DNA from: Planctomycetota bacterium
GTDB lineage: Bacteria > Planctomycetota > Planctomycetia > Gemmatales > Gemmataceae
Length of the DNA: 46,762 nt
Assembly: GCA_016873095.1 (NCBI GenBank)
Contig: VGYC01000037.1
Location: 1-46,762 of the forward strand
Reading direction: 5' to 3'
This document shows positions 7,313 to 46,762 of this stretch, piece after piece. Below the pieces are notes generated by a model. The model searched no databases and was not told the DNA's origin. It saw only the letters and a program-made list of their open reading frames with translations. The translations under genes were made by a program, and so were the position numbers. Position 1 is the first letter of the stretch, and every line of letters starts with the position of its first letter.

Positions 7313-7349
7313 AAAAAAAGGGCCGGCTGCCTCATGAGACAGCCGGCCC
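7313..7349 (-). terminator. Rho-independent terminator after the DUF1549/DUF1553 gene
   Basis: A perfect 10-bp stem (GGGCCGGCTG at 7320-7329 with CAGCCGGCCC at 7340-7349) encloses a 10-base loop. On the minus strand it is followed by seven T (7313-7319). It lies 50 bp after the stop at 7399 and 54 bp ahead of the MFS gene start. Confidence 0.9.
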
Positions 7350-40722: not shown

Positions 40723-41775
40723 ATGGACACCCCACGCACCATCCAGTGGATCGGCGGCACAGACGGTTTCGCCCGCTTGCTGGACCAGACGCTGCTTCCC
40801 GAGAAGCTCGAGTTTCGCGATTGCCGCAAGATCGAGGACATGTGGGAGGCGATCAAAGTGTTGTGCGTTCGCGGAGCGCCGGCCATCGGCTGCGCCGCCG
40901 CCATGGGCGTCGTCCTCGGCATGCAAACATTCAACGGCAAGGAGCGTGGCAGCTACCGCGACAAGCTGTGCGAAGTCGGCGACTACCTGCGCAGCAGCCG
41001 ACCTACGGCTGTCAATTTGGCCTGGGCCGTTGATCGTGTGCAACGTTTTCTGGAACCCTACCTGGAAAAGGAACCCGCGCAGAAGCTCACGCAACGACTG
41101 CTCGATGAGGCCCTTGCCATTGAAGAGGAAGACCGCCAGATGTGCCGGGCCATCGGCAAGTTCGGAGCGCCGCTGATCGGCGAAGGTCAAGGAGTGCTGA
41201 CGCATTGCAATGCCGGCGGCCTGGCCACGGCGGACTACGGCACGGCACTGGCCGTCATGTTTTCAGCCGCTGAGCAGGGCCGCACGTTCCGCGTGTTCGC
41301 CGACGAAACGCGGCCATTGTTGCAAGGAGCCCGGCTAACCACATGGGAGCTGCACCACCGCGGCATCGACGTCACGCTGATCTGCGACAACATGGCGGCC
41401 CAGGTCATGCGTGAAGGCCGAATCAACGTCGTCGTCACCGGGGCCGACCGCATCGCGGCCAACGGCGATACGGCCAACAAGATCGGTACCTACGGCGTCG
41501 CAGTTCTTGCCAGGGCTCACAATATCCCCTTCTACGTCGCCGCTCCTTCCAGCACCTTCGATCTCAGCATGCCCACGGGTGACAAGATCCCCATCGAGCA
41601 ACGTGACCCGCGCGAAATCACGCACGGCCTGGGCCGTTGCATCGCCCCCGACGGCATCAAGGTTTACAACCCCGCCTTCGACGTGACACCCGCCAGCCTC
41701 ATCGCCGGCATCATCACCGAGAAAGGTGTCATCCAGCCTGTCACCACGGAAAAGGTGCTGGCGATGCTCGGCTGA
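40723..41775 (+). CDS. mtnA: S-methyl-5-thioribose-1-phosphate isomerase
   Basis: 350 residues. It converts methylthioribose-1-phosphate to methylthioribulose-1-phosphate in methionine salvage. Seen: CVRGAPAIGCAAAMG near 48-62, the catalytic Cys 162 in LTHCNAGGLAT, Asp 242 in VVTGADRIAANGD, NKIGTYGVAVLA, and APSSTFDLSMPTG. A strong CAGGAGG lies seven bases before ATG 40723. No other mtn genes are adjacent. tRNA-Gln follows 53 bp downstream. Confidence 0.95.
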   Translation: MDTPRTIQWIGGTDGFARLLDQTLLPEKLEFRDCRKIEDMWEAIKVLCVRGAPAIGCAAAMGVVLGMQTFNGKERGSYRDKLCEVGDYLRSSRPTAVNLAWAVDRVQRFLEPYLEKEPAQKLTQRLLDEALAIEEEDRQMCRAIGKFGAPLIGEGQGVLTHCNAGGLATADYGTALAVMFSAAEQGRTFRVFADETRPLLQGARLTTWELHHRGIDVTLICDNMAAQVMREGRINVVVTGADRIAANGDTANKIGTYGVAVLARAHNIPFYVAAPSSTFDLSMPTGDKIPIEQRDPREITHGLGRCIAPDGIKVYNPAFDVTPASLIAGIITEKGVIQPVTTEKVLAMLG

Positions 41776-41828
41776 CCTGCGCTGGACAGGATAGGTGCGC
41801 TCGGTAAAATGAAGCGCGGCAGGATTCT

Positions 41829-41899
41829 TACCCGGTAGTGTAACGGTAGCACAAGAGATTTTGGCTCTCTTTGTCCAGGTTCGAATCCTGGCCGGGTAG
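41829..41899 (+). tRNA. tRNA-Gln (anticodon UUG)
   Basis: A full cloverleaf of 71 bases. Acceptor TACCCGG pairs with CCGGGTA; the D-arm is short (GTG/CAC); the anticodon stem AGAGA/TCTCT encloses TTTTGGC with anticodon TTG at 41861-41863; the T-arm is CCAGG, TTCGAAT, CCTGG; the discriminator is G, as for tRNA-Gln. CCA is not encoded. Gene content changes to phage/plasmid type just downstream, so the 3' end may be an attachment site. Confidence 0.95.
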
Positions 41900-42027
41900 T
41901 TTGACTTACGACGATTCGACGGCCGGCATGTACGCCAGCATGCACTCAAAAAAGGACTGATCGCGATGTGCTGACAGCGGCATGTACTGACTGAACTGGA
42001 TTGGGAAATAGCGGGTTCGGCTTTCGC

Positions 42028-42064
42028 AGGGCCGGTTCCACCTCGGAGCCGGCCCTTTATTTTT
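42028..42064 (+). terminator. Terminator-like hairpin in the leader of the 428-residue protein gene
   Basis: A 12-bp stem (42028-42039 with 42045-42056, one G-T pair) and a five-base loop are followed by TTATTTTT. It has the form of an intrinsic terminator on the plus strand. It ends only 15 bp before the ATG at 42080. It may end the mtnA/tRNA transcript or attenuate the next gene. Confidence 0.75.
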
Positions 42065-42079
42065 GGCGGGAGGGCAGCC

Positions 42080-43366
42080 ATGAAGCTGGAAGAAGTACGA
42101 GCTGCACTTGCGGAACTCGATGCCTTCGAGCTTCCAAGGAATCTCATCGAGTACGACCGGCGAGGTTTCATCAAAACGCGTCAACAGCTCCCAGAACTGA
42201 TCAGCCGCCTGATCCGCATGACGGCGGCGTTTGTGCGTTCTCTCGAAGCCGCTCGTGCAGACATCGAGTTGGCGCGGAGAGTCACCGCCCTCGGGGACCT
42301 GACTGGTCCGAACAGCGCCTTGGAGAAGTCTCGGCAAGCAGCCTACGATTGCGTCGCCCGAGCCATCAAGAGGTTCAAGCTGCCGGACGGCTCGTATCCA
42401 GCTTGCGGCCTCACGAAGAAGCGGGCCAGGGTCAGCCTCACTGGGTCGAGCCCTCGTTCGCTCGCCTGGGACCGAGTTGCTAACGAGTGGCCCAGGTTCG
42501 AGAGATTCCGTGGCGACATAAACGAGATCATCTGGAATGTCGCTGATGCGCTTCGCTACGCTGACTGGCTCCTGAAAGTCACTACGCCAGTTGCTAAACC
42601 CGAAGGTCTGAAGCTCTGGCGCGACCAGCTGTTTCATTTTTCGGCCGCCGTGGACGCGGGCCAGCTGCTAGGTTGTCGTCTCATTGGCCTCTGTGGCGAC
42701 GCCTTGCACGACAGGAAATGCAGTTACGACGCGTATCAAGACGTGACAGACGTGTTGAAAAACAACTTACCGGAGCGCCTGCGAGCAGTAAAAGAAGCCG
42801 CCGCAAGCTTGTTTCGGTCAGCGCTGGAGCGACAGCAGGGTGCGCAAAACGCTCAAAAGCCGATACGGTCGATTACGATGTCGGTCGGAGAACGCAGCTA
42901 TACGATGGAGACCGACGGCGCTCAGCCCCTCTCGTTCTCTGATGAGGAAAAGCCCATCATTGCTCTTGTTGCACAGAAGATCGCAGCGGGTGCGCCAACA
43001 GAGCTTGTGCCTTTGAAGGCTCTGCACTTGGCAATCCATGAGGTAAATCCTGACCGTCGCACGTTCTCGGATCGTTTGCGCCAAACGTTGCTCCGCCTCA
43101 ACAAGCGCGTCCGGAAAGCAATGGGCAGGTTGCCGGACGACATGAACTATCTGGAGTCGAAAAAGGGCAAAGGCATCCATCTGACCGCGCTCGTGGAGTG
43201 GAGAATCACGGACAAGTTTAGGGCAGTTTTGTCACCTTCGTCCGCTTGGGCGCATCCCGCCGACATAAACATCCTTGCGGAAACCCAGCCTGATCGTGGT
43301 CAAAAACTTCCTGCCCGCTCGCGGCATAGGGAAGCAAAAGATGATGAGAACGACGATCAGGATTGA
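42080..43366 (+). CDS. Unknown protein, first gene of the accessory element
   Basis: 428 residues. No family is recognised. The N-terminal half (1-275) looks all-helical (EEVRAALAELDAFELPRNLI, ISRLIRMTAAFVRSLEAAR). Residues about 290-385 look like a winged helix: VAQKIAAGAPTELVPLKALH, then FSDRLRQTLLRLNKRVRKAM and a wing-like NYLESKKGKGIHLTALVEW. The tail is charged. A strong GGGAGGG precedes ATG 42080, directly after the terminator-like hairpin. It could be a DNA-binding replication or control protein; this is inference. A minus-strand frame across 41906-42637 is judged a shadow. Confidence 0.65.
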   Translation: MKLEEVRAALAELDAFELPRNLIEYDRRGFIKTRQQLPELISRLIRMTAAFVRSLEAARADIELARRVTALGDLTGPNSALEKSRQAAYDCVARAIKRFKLPDGSYPACGLTKKRARVSLTGSSPRSLAWDRVANEWPRFERFRGDINEIIWNVADALRYADWLLKVTTPVAKPEGLKLWRDQLFHFSAAVDAGQLLGCRLIGLCGDALHDRKCSYDAYQDVTDVLKNNLPERLRAVKEAAASLFRSALERQQGAQNAQKPIRSITMSVGERSYTMETDGAQPLSFSDEEKPIIALVAQKIAAGAPTELVPLKALHLAIHEVNPDRRTFSDRLRQTLLRLNKRVRKAMGRLPDDMNYLESKKGKGIHLTALVEWRITDKFRAVLSPSSAWAHPADINILAETQPDRGQKLPARSRHREAKDDENDDQD

Positions 43367-43680
43367 GTCTCGTTGGATCACCGTTGAAGCACCGTGACAC
43401 CACCGTGACAAAAAAAGGACTTTCGCCTATCCGCGGCGAAAGTCATGCCAGCCACAACGATTTGGCGCGATTCTACTTGCGCGATTCATCCTTCCTGCCA
43501 GCCCCTTCAATTCCCTGCCACGAGCGTTGTTTTCATGTCAAGTGGGGCGAGTTCTTTGACAACTGAAGCCGACCACGCGGTCGGGACGGTCCAGTGAGCC
43601 ATTGAGGAATCTGGACCTGAGCAGGGTGGAACAAACTACCCGTTCATATTCGGATTGTTTTCTTGAATTGGAGGAATGCT
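43367..43680. other. Gene-free stretch ahead of the AlpA-like gene, 314 bp
   Basis: It holds a tandem ACCGTGACA-like motif near 43391-43410, a hairpin with a seven-A flank (described separately), a small CCGACC/GGTCGG hairpin at 43569-43584, and a TTGACA at 43556-43561 without a good -10. No coding frame is supported. It may contain the element's control region. Confidence 0.5.
43410..43444 (-). terminator. Intrinsic terminator oriented to the minus strand
   Basis: A perfect 10-bp stem (GACTTTCGCC 43418-43427 with GGCGAAAGTC 43435-43444) and a seven-base loop. On the minus strand it is followed after two bases by seven T. No minus-strand gene is seen just upstream of it, so it may end an untranslated RNA or protect against antisense readthrough. 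Confidence 0.7.
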
Positions 43681-43935
43681 ATGCGGAGCAAACATCAAGA
43701 CGATGTTACCGCGACGGCTGTCGCAGAGCCGTTGCTATTTGGTGCTGCGGAGTTGGCGAGGCTTACAGGCCGAAGCGTTCGCAGCATATGGAGAGATCAC
43801 GCAGCGGGCCGGCTTCCACGACCGGTTCGCCTGGGTGGAGCAGTTCGTTGGCGACGAGACGAGGTGATTGCTTGGATTGCCGCAGATTGTCCTACTCGCG
43901 AAGAGTGGGAGAAGGAGAGCGGTTGCCATGAGTAA
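43681..43935 (+). CDS. AlpA/excisionase-like HTH protein
   Basis: 84 residues. LLFGAAELARLTGRSVRSIW then GRLPRPVRLGGAVRWRRDEVIAWI is the MerR-like winged helix of AlpA regulators and phage excisionases (helix_turn_helix_17). Such proteins control integrase expression or bend attachment-site DNA. ATG 43681 has GGAGG seven bases ahead. It overlaps the RecT-like gene by eight bases, so the two are coupled. Confidence 0.85.
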   Translation: MRSKHQDDVTATAVAEPLLFGAAELARLTGRSVRSIWRDHAAGRLPRPVRLGGAVRWRRDEVIAWIAADCPTREEWEKESGCHE

Positions 43936-44707
43936 TTCTCTTGTTTCGGTAAATGCCGGCCGCCCAGCGAACGTAAGCGATGTACTGACACTGGGCAAGC
44001 TACTTGCCGAGAGCAAATTCTTCCCAGATGCCAGCGCTGCGGCCCAAGCCGTGGTCAAGGTACTCGCCGGGCAAGAAATGGGTTTCGGTCCGGTGAGCGC
44101 GATGACCGGCATCAACATTATCAGGGGGAAGGTGTCGGTCAGTGCCAACTTGATGGCTGCTGCTATTCGTCGCAGCGGGCGCTACGACTACACGGTCAGG
44201 CACCTCGACGATCAGCGATGCGAGATCGAGTTCTTCATGGATAAGCAGTCCATTGGCGTTTCCAGCTTCTCGCTGGGCGACGCCAAGAAAGCCGGCTTGA
44301 GCGGCGACAACTGGAGAAAGTACCCGCGAAACATGTTGTTTGCGCGGGCTATGAGCAACGGGGCGAAATGGTTCTGCCCCGACGTTTTCAACGGTCCGGT
44401 GTACACGCCGGACGAACTGGGTGCGGTCGTCGATGGCGAAAGCGGAAACGTCATCACGGTATTGCCCGAACAACAAGAAATGGTGCCGGCTCAGCAGTTG
44501 CCCAACTCTGAGCCTTATGTCGAGATCGAGCAGCTGGTCCGTCGCAAGGGAGCGGACATCGCTCGCCTGCTCGCCCACTACGAGGCCGCGTCACTGCACG
44601 ACCTCACGTCTGAACAATCTGCCGAAGTCGTCGAAACGCTGAGTAAGCGCCCCGACGTACAGCAGGGTCCGCATGGCGCGGAATCTGCCAGCACAGACAA
44701 AAACTAA
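43928..44707 (+). CDS. RecT-like phage ssDNA-annealing protein
   Basis: 259 residues. The core AAQAVVKVLAGQEMGFGPVS, IRGKVSVSANLMAAAIRRSG and GDNWRKYPRNMLFARAMSNG is shared by a family of RecT-like phage recombination proteins. It would anneal complementary single strands during replication or recombination of the element. C-terminal residues 180-259 are variable. ATG 43928 has GGAGAGC about nine bases ahead. It overlaps the AlpA-like gene and is followed after 12 bp by the next gene. No companion exonuclease is seen nearby. Confidence 0.75.
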   Translation: MSNSLVSVNAGRPANVSDVLTLGKLLAESKFFPDASAAAQAVVKVLAGQEMGFGPVSAMTGINIIRGKVSVSANLMAAAIRRSGRYDYTVRHLDDQRCEIEFFMDKQSIGVSSFSLGDAKKAGLSGDNWRKYPRNMLFARAMSNGAKWFCPDVFNGPVYTPDELGAVVDGESGNVITVLPEQQEMVPAQQLPNSEPYVEIEQLVRRKGADIARLLAHYEAASLHDLTSEQSAEVVETLSKRPDVQQGPHGAESASTDKN

Positions 44708-44719
44708 TGAGGATCAAGA

Positions 44720-45259
44720 ATGAACACGACATTTGCAAACAAGTCCGCAACGCTGCGCCCCGAGGGCGTGTACAAGGTCCGCGCAACCAGGTGGGGATGG
44801 TCGGAGACCAAGACCGGCAATGCTCGGTTTTGGATGGCCTTCGACATCCTGGGCCAGGCCGACTGGGACAACCTCAAAGCCGATCCGAAGCCGTGCGAAC
44901 CCGGCACCGGCACATGGTCCATCACCATTGCGTCCGAGGACAATGTGGCGTGGCTGATGAGCAACGTCCAATCCCTCGGATACGACCGTGATGACCTTCG
45001 TGGTCTCGATCCCGACGAACCCAACGCCTTCAACTTCGAGGGCAAAGAGTTCTTCGCGTCGTGCAAGCACGACGAGTACCTGGGCAAGACGAACGAAAAG
45101 TGGTCGTTGTTCAAGCCCCGAAAGCTCGGCAAGGATCGCTTCTTGGCGCTGAGCGAACGCTTCAGCGGGGTGGTGAAGCAGTTGCAGCAACAACATGCTG
45201 CGAAGGCGACCACGCAGACTGAATCCCCCAAGTCTGACGGCAAGCCCCTGCCGTACTAA
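44720..45259 (+). CDS. Phage-type protein, possibly ssDNA-binding (DUF669-like)
   Basis: 179 residues. MNTTFANKSATLRPEGVYKV, TKTGNARFWMAFDIL, and EGKEFFASCKHDEYLGKTNE suggest an OB-fold-like beta domain (about 10-140), as in DUF669-type proteins that stand beside RecT or primase genes in phages. The C-terminus (KATTQTESPKSDGKPLPY) is disordered, like an SSB tail but without the acidic tip. The family call is tentative; the position between RecT-like and primase genes supports a DNA-metabolism role. Confidence 0.55.
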   Translation: MNTTFANKSATLRPEGVYKVRATRWGWSETKTGNARFWMAFDILGQADWDNLKADPKPCEPGTGTWSITIASEDNVAWLMSNVQSLGYDRDDLRGLDPDEPNAFNFEGKEFFASCKHDEYLGKTNEKWSLFKPRKLGKDRFLALSERFSGVVKQLQQQHAAKATTQTESPKSDGKPLPY

Positions 45260-45273
45260 CAACCACAGTTCAG

Positions 45274-45302
45274 TCCCTCCCGGTACGCCCAGCCGGGAGG
45301 GA
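45274..45302 (+). promoter_or_regulatory. Intergenic hairpin before the primase gene
   Basis: A perfect 10-bp stem (TCCCTCCCGG with CCGGGAGGGA) encloses a nine-base loop. It is followed by TTCTTGGAG, so there is no true T-run, and the GGAG before the primase start follows directly. It may be a partial terminator or processing site that lowers primase expression. Confidence 0.5.
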
Positions 45303-45321
45303 TTCTTGGAGTAATGAATAA

Positions 45322-46716
45322 ATGGAACACATCGACCAATTCCTGGCCCGCCTGACTGGTGTGATCGAAACCGGCACCGGCTGGAAAGCCTGCTGCCCAT
45401 GCAGCCGTCATGGGCGTGATGGCAAAGACAAGAAGCCGTCTTTGAGCGTATCGCTTGGCGAAGACAAGAAGATCATCCTCTTCTGCTTCGCCGGCTGCAA
45501 TACCGACGACATCATCGCCGACATGGGCCTTGAGTATCGAGACCTTCGCCCCAAGGACGAAGCCGAAGCGACTGTGGATTCATCGGCCAATGCCGCTGAC
45601 ACCGCGCCAGTTACCTATGACCGCCCCCGACCTGCCGACTCTATCGACGCGGCGCTTCATCACAGCGTCTACAGCGTTTTGCAAGCGAAGCTCACGCTCA
45701 GCGACACGCATCGCCAAAACCTGCGCGACCGCGGACTGAGCGATGAGCAAATCGACCTGCGAGGCTATCGTTCCCTTTCCTACTTTTCAGTGCGACAAGG
45801 GCTTGGCGCTCTGCGTGAGCAGTTCGGCCAAGCGTTGTTGCAGGTGCCCGGCTTTGTTCACAAGGACGGCAAGATATGTGCCGTCGAAATGCCTGCCGGT
45901 ATTCTTATTCCGATCCGAGACATGCAGGAACGTATCATCGCGTTGCAGGTTCGGTGTGATGAGAATCGTGGCGGCGGCAAATACCGCTGGTTCTCTGGCG
46001 GCGACACGAGTAGCAGATCGCCGGCGCACGTTCCGCTTGGCGTCAAGCCATCCGACACCATTCGTGTGACGGAAGGCGGCCTCAAGGCTGACATCGCCTT
46101 CGCCCTCGATGGCGTTCCGACGATTGGCACTGGCGGCGTCTCTGCTTGGGACCCGGCAATTCCTGTGCTGGCTCAGCTAGGTGCCAAAACGGTCCGGGTC
46201 GCGTTTGACGCCGATGCGCGGGACAACTTCAGTGTTGCTACGGCAGTGACCATGTTCTGTACGGCGCTGTCTCATCAATTCGAGGTGCAGGTCGAAGTGT
46301 GGCCCCTTGAGAAAGGCAAGGGAATAGATGACCTGCTTCGTAGCGGAGGAAAGCCTGACCTGCTATCTCGCGGTTCTTCAGGACATTTCCTCCGAAGTCT
46401 TAACGCTGGCATTAAAGGCGGCTCGGCATTGTTCACAGTCGAACAGGTTGATCCACCGGCCGAGTTCACTTCTGACGAGCCAGAACCTATCACACCAGAG
46501 GAGTCAACACCTTGCGCGACTCCGTTGTCCGATTCGCTGGTTGAAGCATCACAAGCCATCGCAGCGCCGAGGGGACCTGACAAGTTCCCCTACGGCTCCG
46601 GTGATCCAGCTCCGTTTCCGCTCGACTTCTTTCCTGAACCGCTCCAGGCGGTCGCGAAAGAAATCGGGATCATCCGACTAGAGCGTATTTCGTCTGATGA
46701 ATGGCGAGGATCTTGA
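45322..46716 (+). CDS. Phage/plasmid primase with CHC2 finger and DUF3854-type Toprim, 3' end replaced by an insertion sequence
   Basis: 464 residues as read. A CHC2-like zinc finger has ligands among Cys 24, 25, 27, His 30, Cys 55 and Cys 59. The Toprim-like part (about 245-345) includes RVTEGGLKADIAFALDGVP and VRVAFDADARDN, as in DUF3854 primases of P4/phage type. After a linker, FPLDFFPEPLQAVAKE looks like the beginning of a DUF3987-type helicase domain, but it stops after a few residues. The last 15 or so codons (near IIRLERISS) come from an insertion sequence whose transposase is read on the other strand. It would prime DNA synthesis; the helicase part is lost. Confidence 0.75.
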   Translation: MEHIDQFLARLTGVIETGTGWKACCPCSRHGRDGKDKKPSLSVSLGEDKKIILFCFAGCNTDDIIADMGLEYRDLRPKDEAEATVDSSANAADTAPVTYDRPRPADSIDAALHHSVYSVLQAKLTLSDTHRQNLRDRGLSDEQIDLRGYRSLSYFSVRQGLGALREQFGQALLQVPGFVHKDGKICAVEMPAGILIPIRDMQERIIALQVRCDENRGGGKYRWFSGGDTSSRSPAHVPLGVKPSDTIRVTEGGLKADIAFALDGVPTIGTGGVSAWDPAIPVLAQLGAKTVRVAFDADARDNFSVATAVTMFCTALSHQFEVQVEVWPLEKGKGIDDLLRSGGKPDLLSRGSSGHFLRSLNAGIKGGSALFTVEQVDPPAEFTSDEPEPITPEESTPCATPLSDSLVEASQAIAAPRGPDKFPYGSGDPAPFPLDFFPEPLQAVAKEIGIIRLERISSDEWRGS

Positions 46717-46762
46717 GTTTGAAGAACTCGTGATCTCGGAAGCCATAGGCTTGGCGTTTCAT
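46670..46762 (-). mobile_element. Insertion sequence, C-terminus of an ISL3-like transposase (cut by window end)
   Basis: On the minus strand the last 30 codons read KRQAYGFRDHEFFKLKI, then an ending KYALVG and TGA at 46672-46670. This fits the conserved C-terminal region of ISL3 (IS204/IS1001) family transposases. The rest of the transposase and the other end of the element lie beyond 46762. It is inserted in the primase gene; the junction is probably between 46640 and 46670. No terminal repeat could be fixed because only one end is visible. Confidence 0.65.

Follow-up and report, generated by a model that had tools for sequence, protein, structure and literature searches.

An Orphan Gene behind a Terminator-Like Hairpin beside tRNA-Gln(TTG), at the Putative Left Edge of a Planctomycete Mobile Element

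Introduction

How does a gene come to be transcribed when a hairpin resembling an intrinsic terminator stands immediately in front of its ribosome-binding site? The question is raised by P0001, a gene that follows tRNA-Gln(TTG) in a genome that, by its gene content, looks planctomycete, and that would lie outermost on the left of a mobile element with phage-like replication genes. We address it within the window, by which we mean the whole 46,762-nucleotide stretch analysed; it is contig C37 in full, from an assembly of 548 contigs and 8.36 Mb, and its end, at 46762, falls inside the element.

Results

The Locus and Its Gene Order

The genes of the locus are read from the forward strand. An open reading frame at 40723–41775, which we take from its sequence to be mtnA, is followed by a sigma-70-like promoter (TGGACA-16-TAAAAT, 10/12 matches in the promoter scan, 41783–41810) just 5′ of tRNA-Gln(TTG) (41828–41900; ARAGORN, and Rfam tRNA at 63.4 bits). 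Next come the hairpin with its T-tract (42028–42064) and P0001 (42080–43366), whose start lies 179 nt 3′ of the co-directional tRNA; the hairpin itself stands 127 nt past the tRNA and 252 nt past mtnA. To the right of P0001 are an excisionase/AlpA-like helix-turn-helix protein (43681–43935; HTH_17 at 7.7e-6 and 26.5 bits, under the cut-off of 27, phrog_66 at 2.3e-11), a RecT-like single-stranded DNA annealing protein (43928–44707; phrog_561 at 6.6e-27, with 27 relatives on viral contigs at up to 62% identity), a 179-residue element protein of unknown function (44720–45259) with no family above cut-off and no viral relative, and a primase/TOPRIM-like protein (45322–46716; DUF3854 at 2.9e-7, phrog_6088 at 1.6e-10). 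The excisionase-, RecT- and primase-like neighbours, together with the use of tRNA-Gln as an apparent hotspot in relatives, support the presence of a mobile element beside the tRNA.

The evidence from relatives is as follows. The 3′ part of tRNA-Gln, anticodon arm included (about 41857–41899 in the window), is duplicated, the second copy lying on the same contig 3.8–20.2 kb away, in genomes G006, G009, G027, G028 and G089; the islands with the duplicated segment are L110, L111, L112/L113, L114 and L115. Because five relatives carry the second copy, and in three of these islands (L110, L114 and L115) an integrase gene adjoins the tRNA, facing it in L110 and L115, tRNA-Gln(TTG) is, judged by such comparison, an integration hotspot in the family. 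In L114 (G009) the integrase (Phage_integrase, 3.2e-15) is co-directional with tRNA-Gln and begins about 135 nt past it, and in its leader, 88 nt 5′ of the ATG, a hairpin of 11 bp (−12.8 kcal/mol) precedes a short run of T (TTT). The L110 island carries a primase of DUF3854, the family also matched by the primase of the window. A hairpin with a T-run was found no more than 320 nt from tRNA-Gln at 10 of 30 loci, that of the window included, with two of the 30 offering less than 320 nt for the scan. An integrase search at the same 30 tRNA-Gln loci gave matches at 12, of which we judge four to be real (L088, L095, L105 and L090, the last being island L110 again) and perhaps a fifth (L082). Short integrase matches on the other strand of the tRNA were discounted, the C-termini of integrases being encoded there by antisense tRNA.

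The left edge of the element, and hence the standing of P0001 as its first gene, is putative; the exact edge could lie either inside tRNA-Gln or near 41944. Homology between the window and the corresponding locus of G013 (L096) amounts to 85% over 41829–41943, that is, over the tRNA and a common 43-nt trailer (41901–41943), and it breaks off at 41943, 43 nt past the tRNA. The break is close to an 11-nt direct repeat, AAAAAAGGACT, at 41948–41958, which the repeat search found again at 43411–43421; when the two flanks were shuffled, 36 of 2000 trials had a common word of equal or greater length, and we keep the repeat as a remark only. A second att copy, sought as a 22-nt piece of the tRNA with up to three mismatches, was not found in the 548-contig assembly, in which the contig ends inside the element. 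Another search for the copy was likewise negative, its further matches falling on tRNA-Gln(CTG), tRNA-Met, tRNA-Thr and a single stretch that has no tRNA. Synteny around mtnA offered no help with the edge: at 29 loci in relatives, no tRNA lay in the flanking sequence covered (up to 1.5 kb) around this gene. Elsewhere in the same genome (L013, contig C257), a gene resembling an integrase adjoins tRNA-Met close to the end of its contig and could mark a second element.

The Hairpin as a Probable Terminator

The original prediction had described a 12-bp stem followed by a T-tract and, directly after it, a ribosome-binding site, and all three are in place. The stem, at 42028–42056, is a perfect 12 bp, nine of the pairs being G-C; it closes a loop of 5 nt and is followed by the tail TTATTTTTGG. 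The T-tract, TTTATTTTT, ends 15 nt 5′ of the P0001 ATG, and the Shine-Dalgarno sequence GGAGGG occupies 42069–42074. Folded alone, the hairpin has a predicted stability of −25.2 kcal/mol, and the segment 42005–42085 gives a folding z of −2.96, none of 200 shuffles being equally stable. In a scan of 2.1 kb, five terminator-like sites were found against a shuffle mean of 2.4, this hairpin having the most pairs. A stricter scan of the whole window, in which it was listed as its 14-bp one-mismatch version, returned seven sites, where 100 simulated windows averaged 1.87, and no simulated site reached a sum of stem and G-C pairs of 21 or more without a mismatch, the value (12 + 9) that the hairpin attains.

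Placement in the genome was surveyed over 40 stretches of 20 kb from contigs C1–C20 together with the window (846,762 bases), using home-made gene calls that miss atypical genes and into which P0001 and the primase were entered by hand. Although roughly 80% of the sequence was called coding, 16 of the 19 strong hairpin-plus-T sites are intergenic and three lie in genes; among the 16, three belong to the window and two are the two strands of a single palindrome in L131. At seven of these 16, a co-directional stop codon lies within 50 nt. Since like sites are so largely intergenic, and so often close behind a co-directional gene, the hairpin and T-tract at 42028–42064 are, by sequence, fold and genomic placement, very probably an intrinsic terminator, which agrees with the earlier description of the hairpin as terminator-like. 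The closeness of the terminator to the P0001 start codon is unusual: where the next gene is co-directional (n = 10), the gap from T-tract to start is 40 nt or less at one site, that of P0001, and 60 nt or less at three.

Two further hairpins in the window deserve mention, both on the reverse strand. One, at 7320–7349, is very strongly terminator-like and has the base GGGCCGG in common with the hairpin at 42028; it sits between two co-directional genes, 49 nt past one and 51 nt ahead of the next by the home-made calls. The other, at 43418–43444, is followed by a T-run and was picked up by both the terminator scans and the survey; it lies between P0001 and the excisionase-like gene, with no obvious reverse-strand element gene to its right, and overlaps the second copy of AAAAAAGGACT. 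Exact matches to the patterns tried for it were not found in viral_contigs or genome_contigs.

P0001 as a Gene and a Protein

A 428-residue protein encoded behind the hairpin had been predicted, and the frame, 42080–43366, is present and opens with ATG. Its stop-free stretch of 463 codons exceeds the longest (451; median, 220) in 200 Markov simulations of 41901–46762, and of the six frames it scores highest under the codon usage of the element as well as that of the host. Under element usage P0001 scores +12.4, and the best frame of an intergenic control (43367–43680) scores +3.1; under host usage P0001 scores −14.9 against −12.6 for the control, so that by the host model it does not pass for a gene. 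The GC3 of P0001 is 0.646, compared with 0.74–0.81 in four host genes and 0.51–0.79 in four element genes. Taken together, these observations weakly indicate that the frame is coding. They also bear on the possibility that the hairpin is a plain terminator of the tRNA and that P0001, whether accessory or in decay, has no functioning promoter and is expressed little if at all. An orphan so atypical for its host in GC3 and host codon score, with no good promoter and a terminator in front of it, would fit that description, but the intact frame, which surpasses in length every chance stretch simulated, and the good ribosome-binding site argue against it, and we regard silence as rather improbable.

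The protein had been said to belong to no recognised family, and the searches agree. No family came above threshold in the profile searches; DUF6415 (E 0.058) and phrog_22288 (E 0.003, residues 191–300, unknown function) appeared below it, matches too weak to be relied on as a family for P0001. No relative was found in viral_contigs with whole, N-terminal, middle or C-terminal queries, or in genome_contigs with one query, these being searches by short exact peptides that reach close relatives only. Plasmids and phages gave none by tblastn at E ≤ 0.1, and among 95 genomes of the family and 102 of the order (the latter including the former) the own genome alone matched. Two matches to the C-terminal part at 0.02–0.04 in the 95 genomes were not counted, the loci carrying a sigma-factor-like frame. 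In a draw from the phylum, other matches appeared in 6 of 392 genomes at 4.6e-4 to 0.009, among the matches listed and with at most four candidates scored per genome; we take these six to be chance, the frames of the two that were checked (L002 and L005) encoding unrelated proteins. A phmmer --max search at E ≤ 1 of loci L046–L079, among them 27 RecT-bearing viral loci, found P0001 only in L077, its own place. P0001 is thus an orphan in the collections searched.

Two structural features had also been proposed, a helical N-terminal half and a winged-helix-like C-terminal part, and both find some echo in the models. Single-sequence structure models are poor (pLDDT 39.2 for the whole protein and 48.4 for the C-terminal part), and at that low confidence residues 3–258 are mainly helical, residues from about 257 to 380 follow the order two strands, three helices and a final strand, which fits a winged helix, and an acidic tail ends the protein. 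Searched by sequence, the PDB gave best E values of 0.54 (whole P0001) and 0.44 (C-terminal part). Foldseek with the C-terminal model returned nothing at E ≤ 0.001 (best E, 0.25), and no winged helix was recognised among its top rows. Aligned by VIA-align with 427 chains picked by Foldseek, the model reached Z ≥ 2 with 22 and a best Z of 4.8, a value that the tool itself says may reflect merely a common arrangement. Sixteen of the 22 are, by their folds, winged-helix proteins; among these, seven chains are of OmpR type, at Z 2.6–4.2 (NsrR, PhoP twice, VicR, a response regulator complex and ToxR twice).

P0001 therefore resembles OmpR/PhoB-type (Trans_reg_C) proteins in its predicted order of elements and in these weak structural matches to NsrR, PhoP, VicR and ToxR, but it differs from them in having no sequence-profile match and in carrying a helical N-terminal part in place of a receiver domain. 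PF00486 (Trans_reg_C) at E ≤ 10 marks five places in the genome, and P0001 is not among them. A profile built from the OmpR-type proteins at three of those five loci, the motif filter having found no sequence in L123 and L124, gave P0001 1.9 bits, and 98 of 2000 shuffles did as well. The winged-helix likeness of the C-terminal part is weak. Read with the helical N-terminal part, the models suggest that P0001 is probably a DNA-binding regulator.

Transcription and Translation of P0001

In a scan of 41700–43800 the tRNA promoter was the sole site to pass (shuffle mean, 0.3). Between 41900 and the ATG the best candidates reach 7/12 matches, the commonest best score among shuffles (166 of 300), although the promoter rules of the host lineage may differ. 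It had been argued that a promoter for P0001 could lie only upstream of the hairpin. That is likely, with all candidates at chance level, but as a strict statement it goes too far, because one of the 7/12 candidates has its −10-like element, TATTTT, within the T-tract itself (42058–42063), coupled to a poor −35 (3/6). There is steric room for a weak promoter that overlaps the T-tract, and a transcript starting from it would have a leader that we estimate at roughly 9–11 nt.

Folding of the leader suggests a second obstacle. An outer arm at 42021–42027 is predicted, by the minimum free energy fold and by accessibility, to pair with 42066–42072 and so to cover the ribosome-binding site: the mean probability that GGAGGG is unpaired is 0.085 in the full leader but rises to 0.91 for an RNA beginning at 42028 and to 0.83 for one beginning at 42066. 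When 41901–42027 was shuffled, 11 of 300 sequences left the site equally or more closed. The predicted masking is suggestive only, because closed sites are found at other starts as well: elsewhere in the window, 12 predicted starts give values from 0.039 to 0.698, one of them falling below that of P0001.

These values frame a reading in which P0001 is insulated and has a promoter to itself: transcription from outside would be blocked by the hairpin and by masking of the ribosome-binding site, while the −10 element in the T-tract would yield a short leader with an open site. The presence of TATTTT and the opening of GGAGGG in an RNA from 42066 are what such an arrangement would predict; set against a −35 of three matches in six and a total at chance level, they leave it unlikely in our estimation. 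Regulated antitermination, by which a ligand, a protein or an element-encoded factor would turn the terminator off, is suggested by geometry, a terminator 15 nt ahead of a start codon with 127 nt of leader before it being attenuator-like. Yet in 41780–43700 the tRNA alone reached its Rfam gathering score and no cis-regulatory family did so (a psbNH match touching the hairpin scored 15.7 bits, with a cut-off of 45), the leader 5′ of the hairpin is structured at chance level (z = 0.58), and P0001 offers no relatives for covariation. We consider a regulated attenuator of this kind distinctly doubtful.

Insulation and antitermination had been put forward as the only alternatives, a choice that proves too narrow, since it leaves out read-through from the tRNA with attenuation, as in ICEKp1. 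It is this last reading that we tentatively favour, with a little less than even confidence: the terminator would attenuate transcription from the tRNA promoter and keep the element-borne orphan P0001 low. The leader hairpin would halt most of the transcription arriving from that promoter, so that P0001 would be made at a low, attenuated level through read-through. Read-through transcripts may, in addition, be poorly translated, given the predicted pairing of the arm at 42021–42027 over their ribosome-binding site.

Discussion

Attenuated read-through from a tRNA promoter has a precedent. In the ICEKp1 report (PMC13023037), the integrase gene of the element, int, lies 161 bp 3′ of a tRNA gene and is driven by the tRNA promoter when the element is integrated; stem-loops in the int leader act as a potential terminator and attenuate expression; and co-transcription, attenuation and a switch of promoter upon excision are demonstrated. 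The same report states that analogous control has been reported for ICEclc and ICEEc1 (PMC13023037). On anatomy, the P0001 locus resembles the ICEKp1 leader as described there: the leftmost gene, as P0001 appears to be, stands beside the tRNA in the same direction, at 179 nt here and 161 bp in ICEKp1, and the leader holds a stem-loop terminator, that of P0001 being known from sequence and fold (PMC13023037). Unlike ICEKp1, where the first gene is an integrase (PMC13023037), the element studied here would begin with an orphan that is not one.

The leader arrangement of P0001 is therefore ordinary and demands no new kind of system. If our reading is true, the tRNA-coupled, attenuated leader of ICEKp1-like elements extends to a first gene other than an integrase and to another lineage, and it bears on the way in which genes at an element's edge are screened from transcription of the host tRNA. 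A bolder proposal would make P0001 the founder of a new winged-helix regulator family, which elements in planctomycete-like hosts would carry on their tRNA side, the terminator and the hidden ribosome-binding site together forming a double lock that silences the integrated state, with protein made only on excision or on a resetting of transcription. We regard that as a long shot.

The islands of the relatives afford a further comparison. Like L110, L114 and L115, the element of the window would have tRNA-Gln(TTG) as its target, and in L114 the first gene is likewise co-directional, behind a weaker hairpin. In those islands, however, the gene adjoining the tRNA is an integrase, and P0001 has no similarity to one. 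Tyrosine recombinases are marked by the catalytic motif R..HxxR..Y. That P0001 might be a very divergent integrase, integrases holding this position in some relatives' islands, is suggested by its place and direction, which are those of the L114 enzyme, and by its length (428 residues versus 394). Against this, it lacks both a Phage_integrase match and an HxxR motif, and its similarity to four integrase-like proteins is at the level of shuffles; the idea is scarcely credible.

Two observations on tRNA-Gln in the relatives may be added. The integrase frames at L110:1142–3001 and L115:8782–10662 run, on the other strand, through the tRNA in L110 and into it in L115; the C-terminus of each integrase is thus partly encoded by antisense tRNA-Gln, and integration would change or restore the integrase tail. 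In L116 (G075), two tandem copies of tRNA-Gln stand about 50 nt apart.
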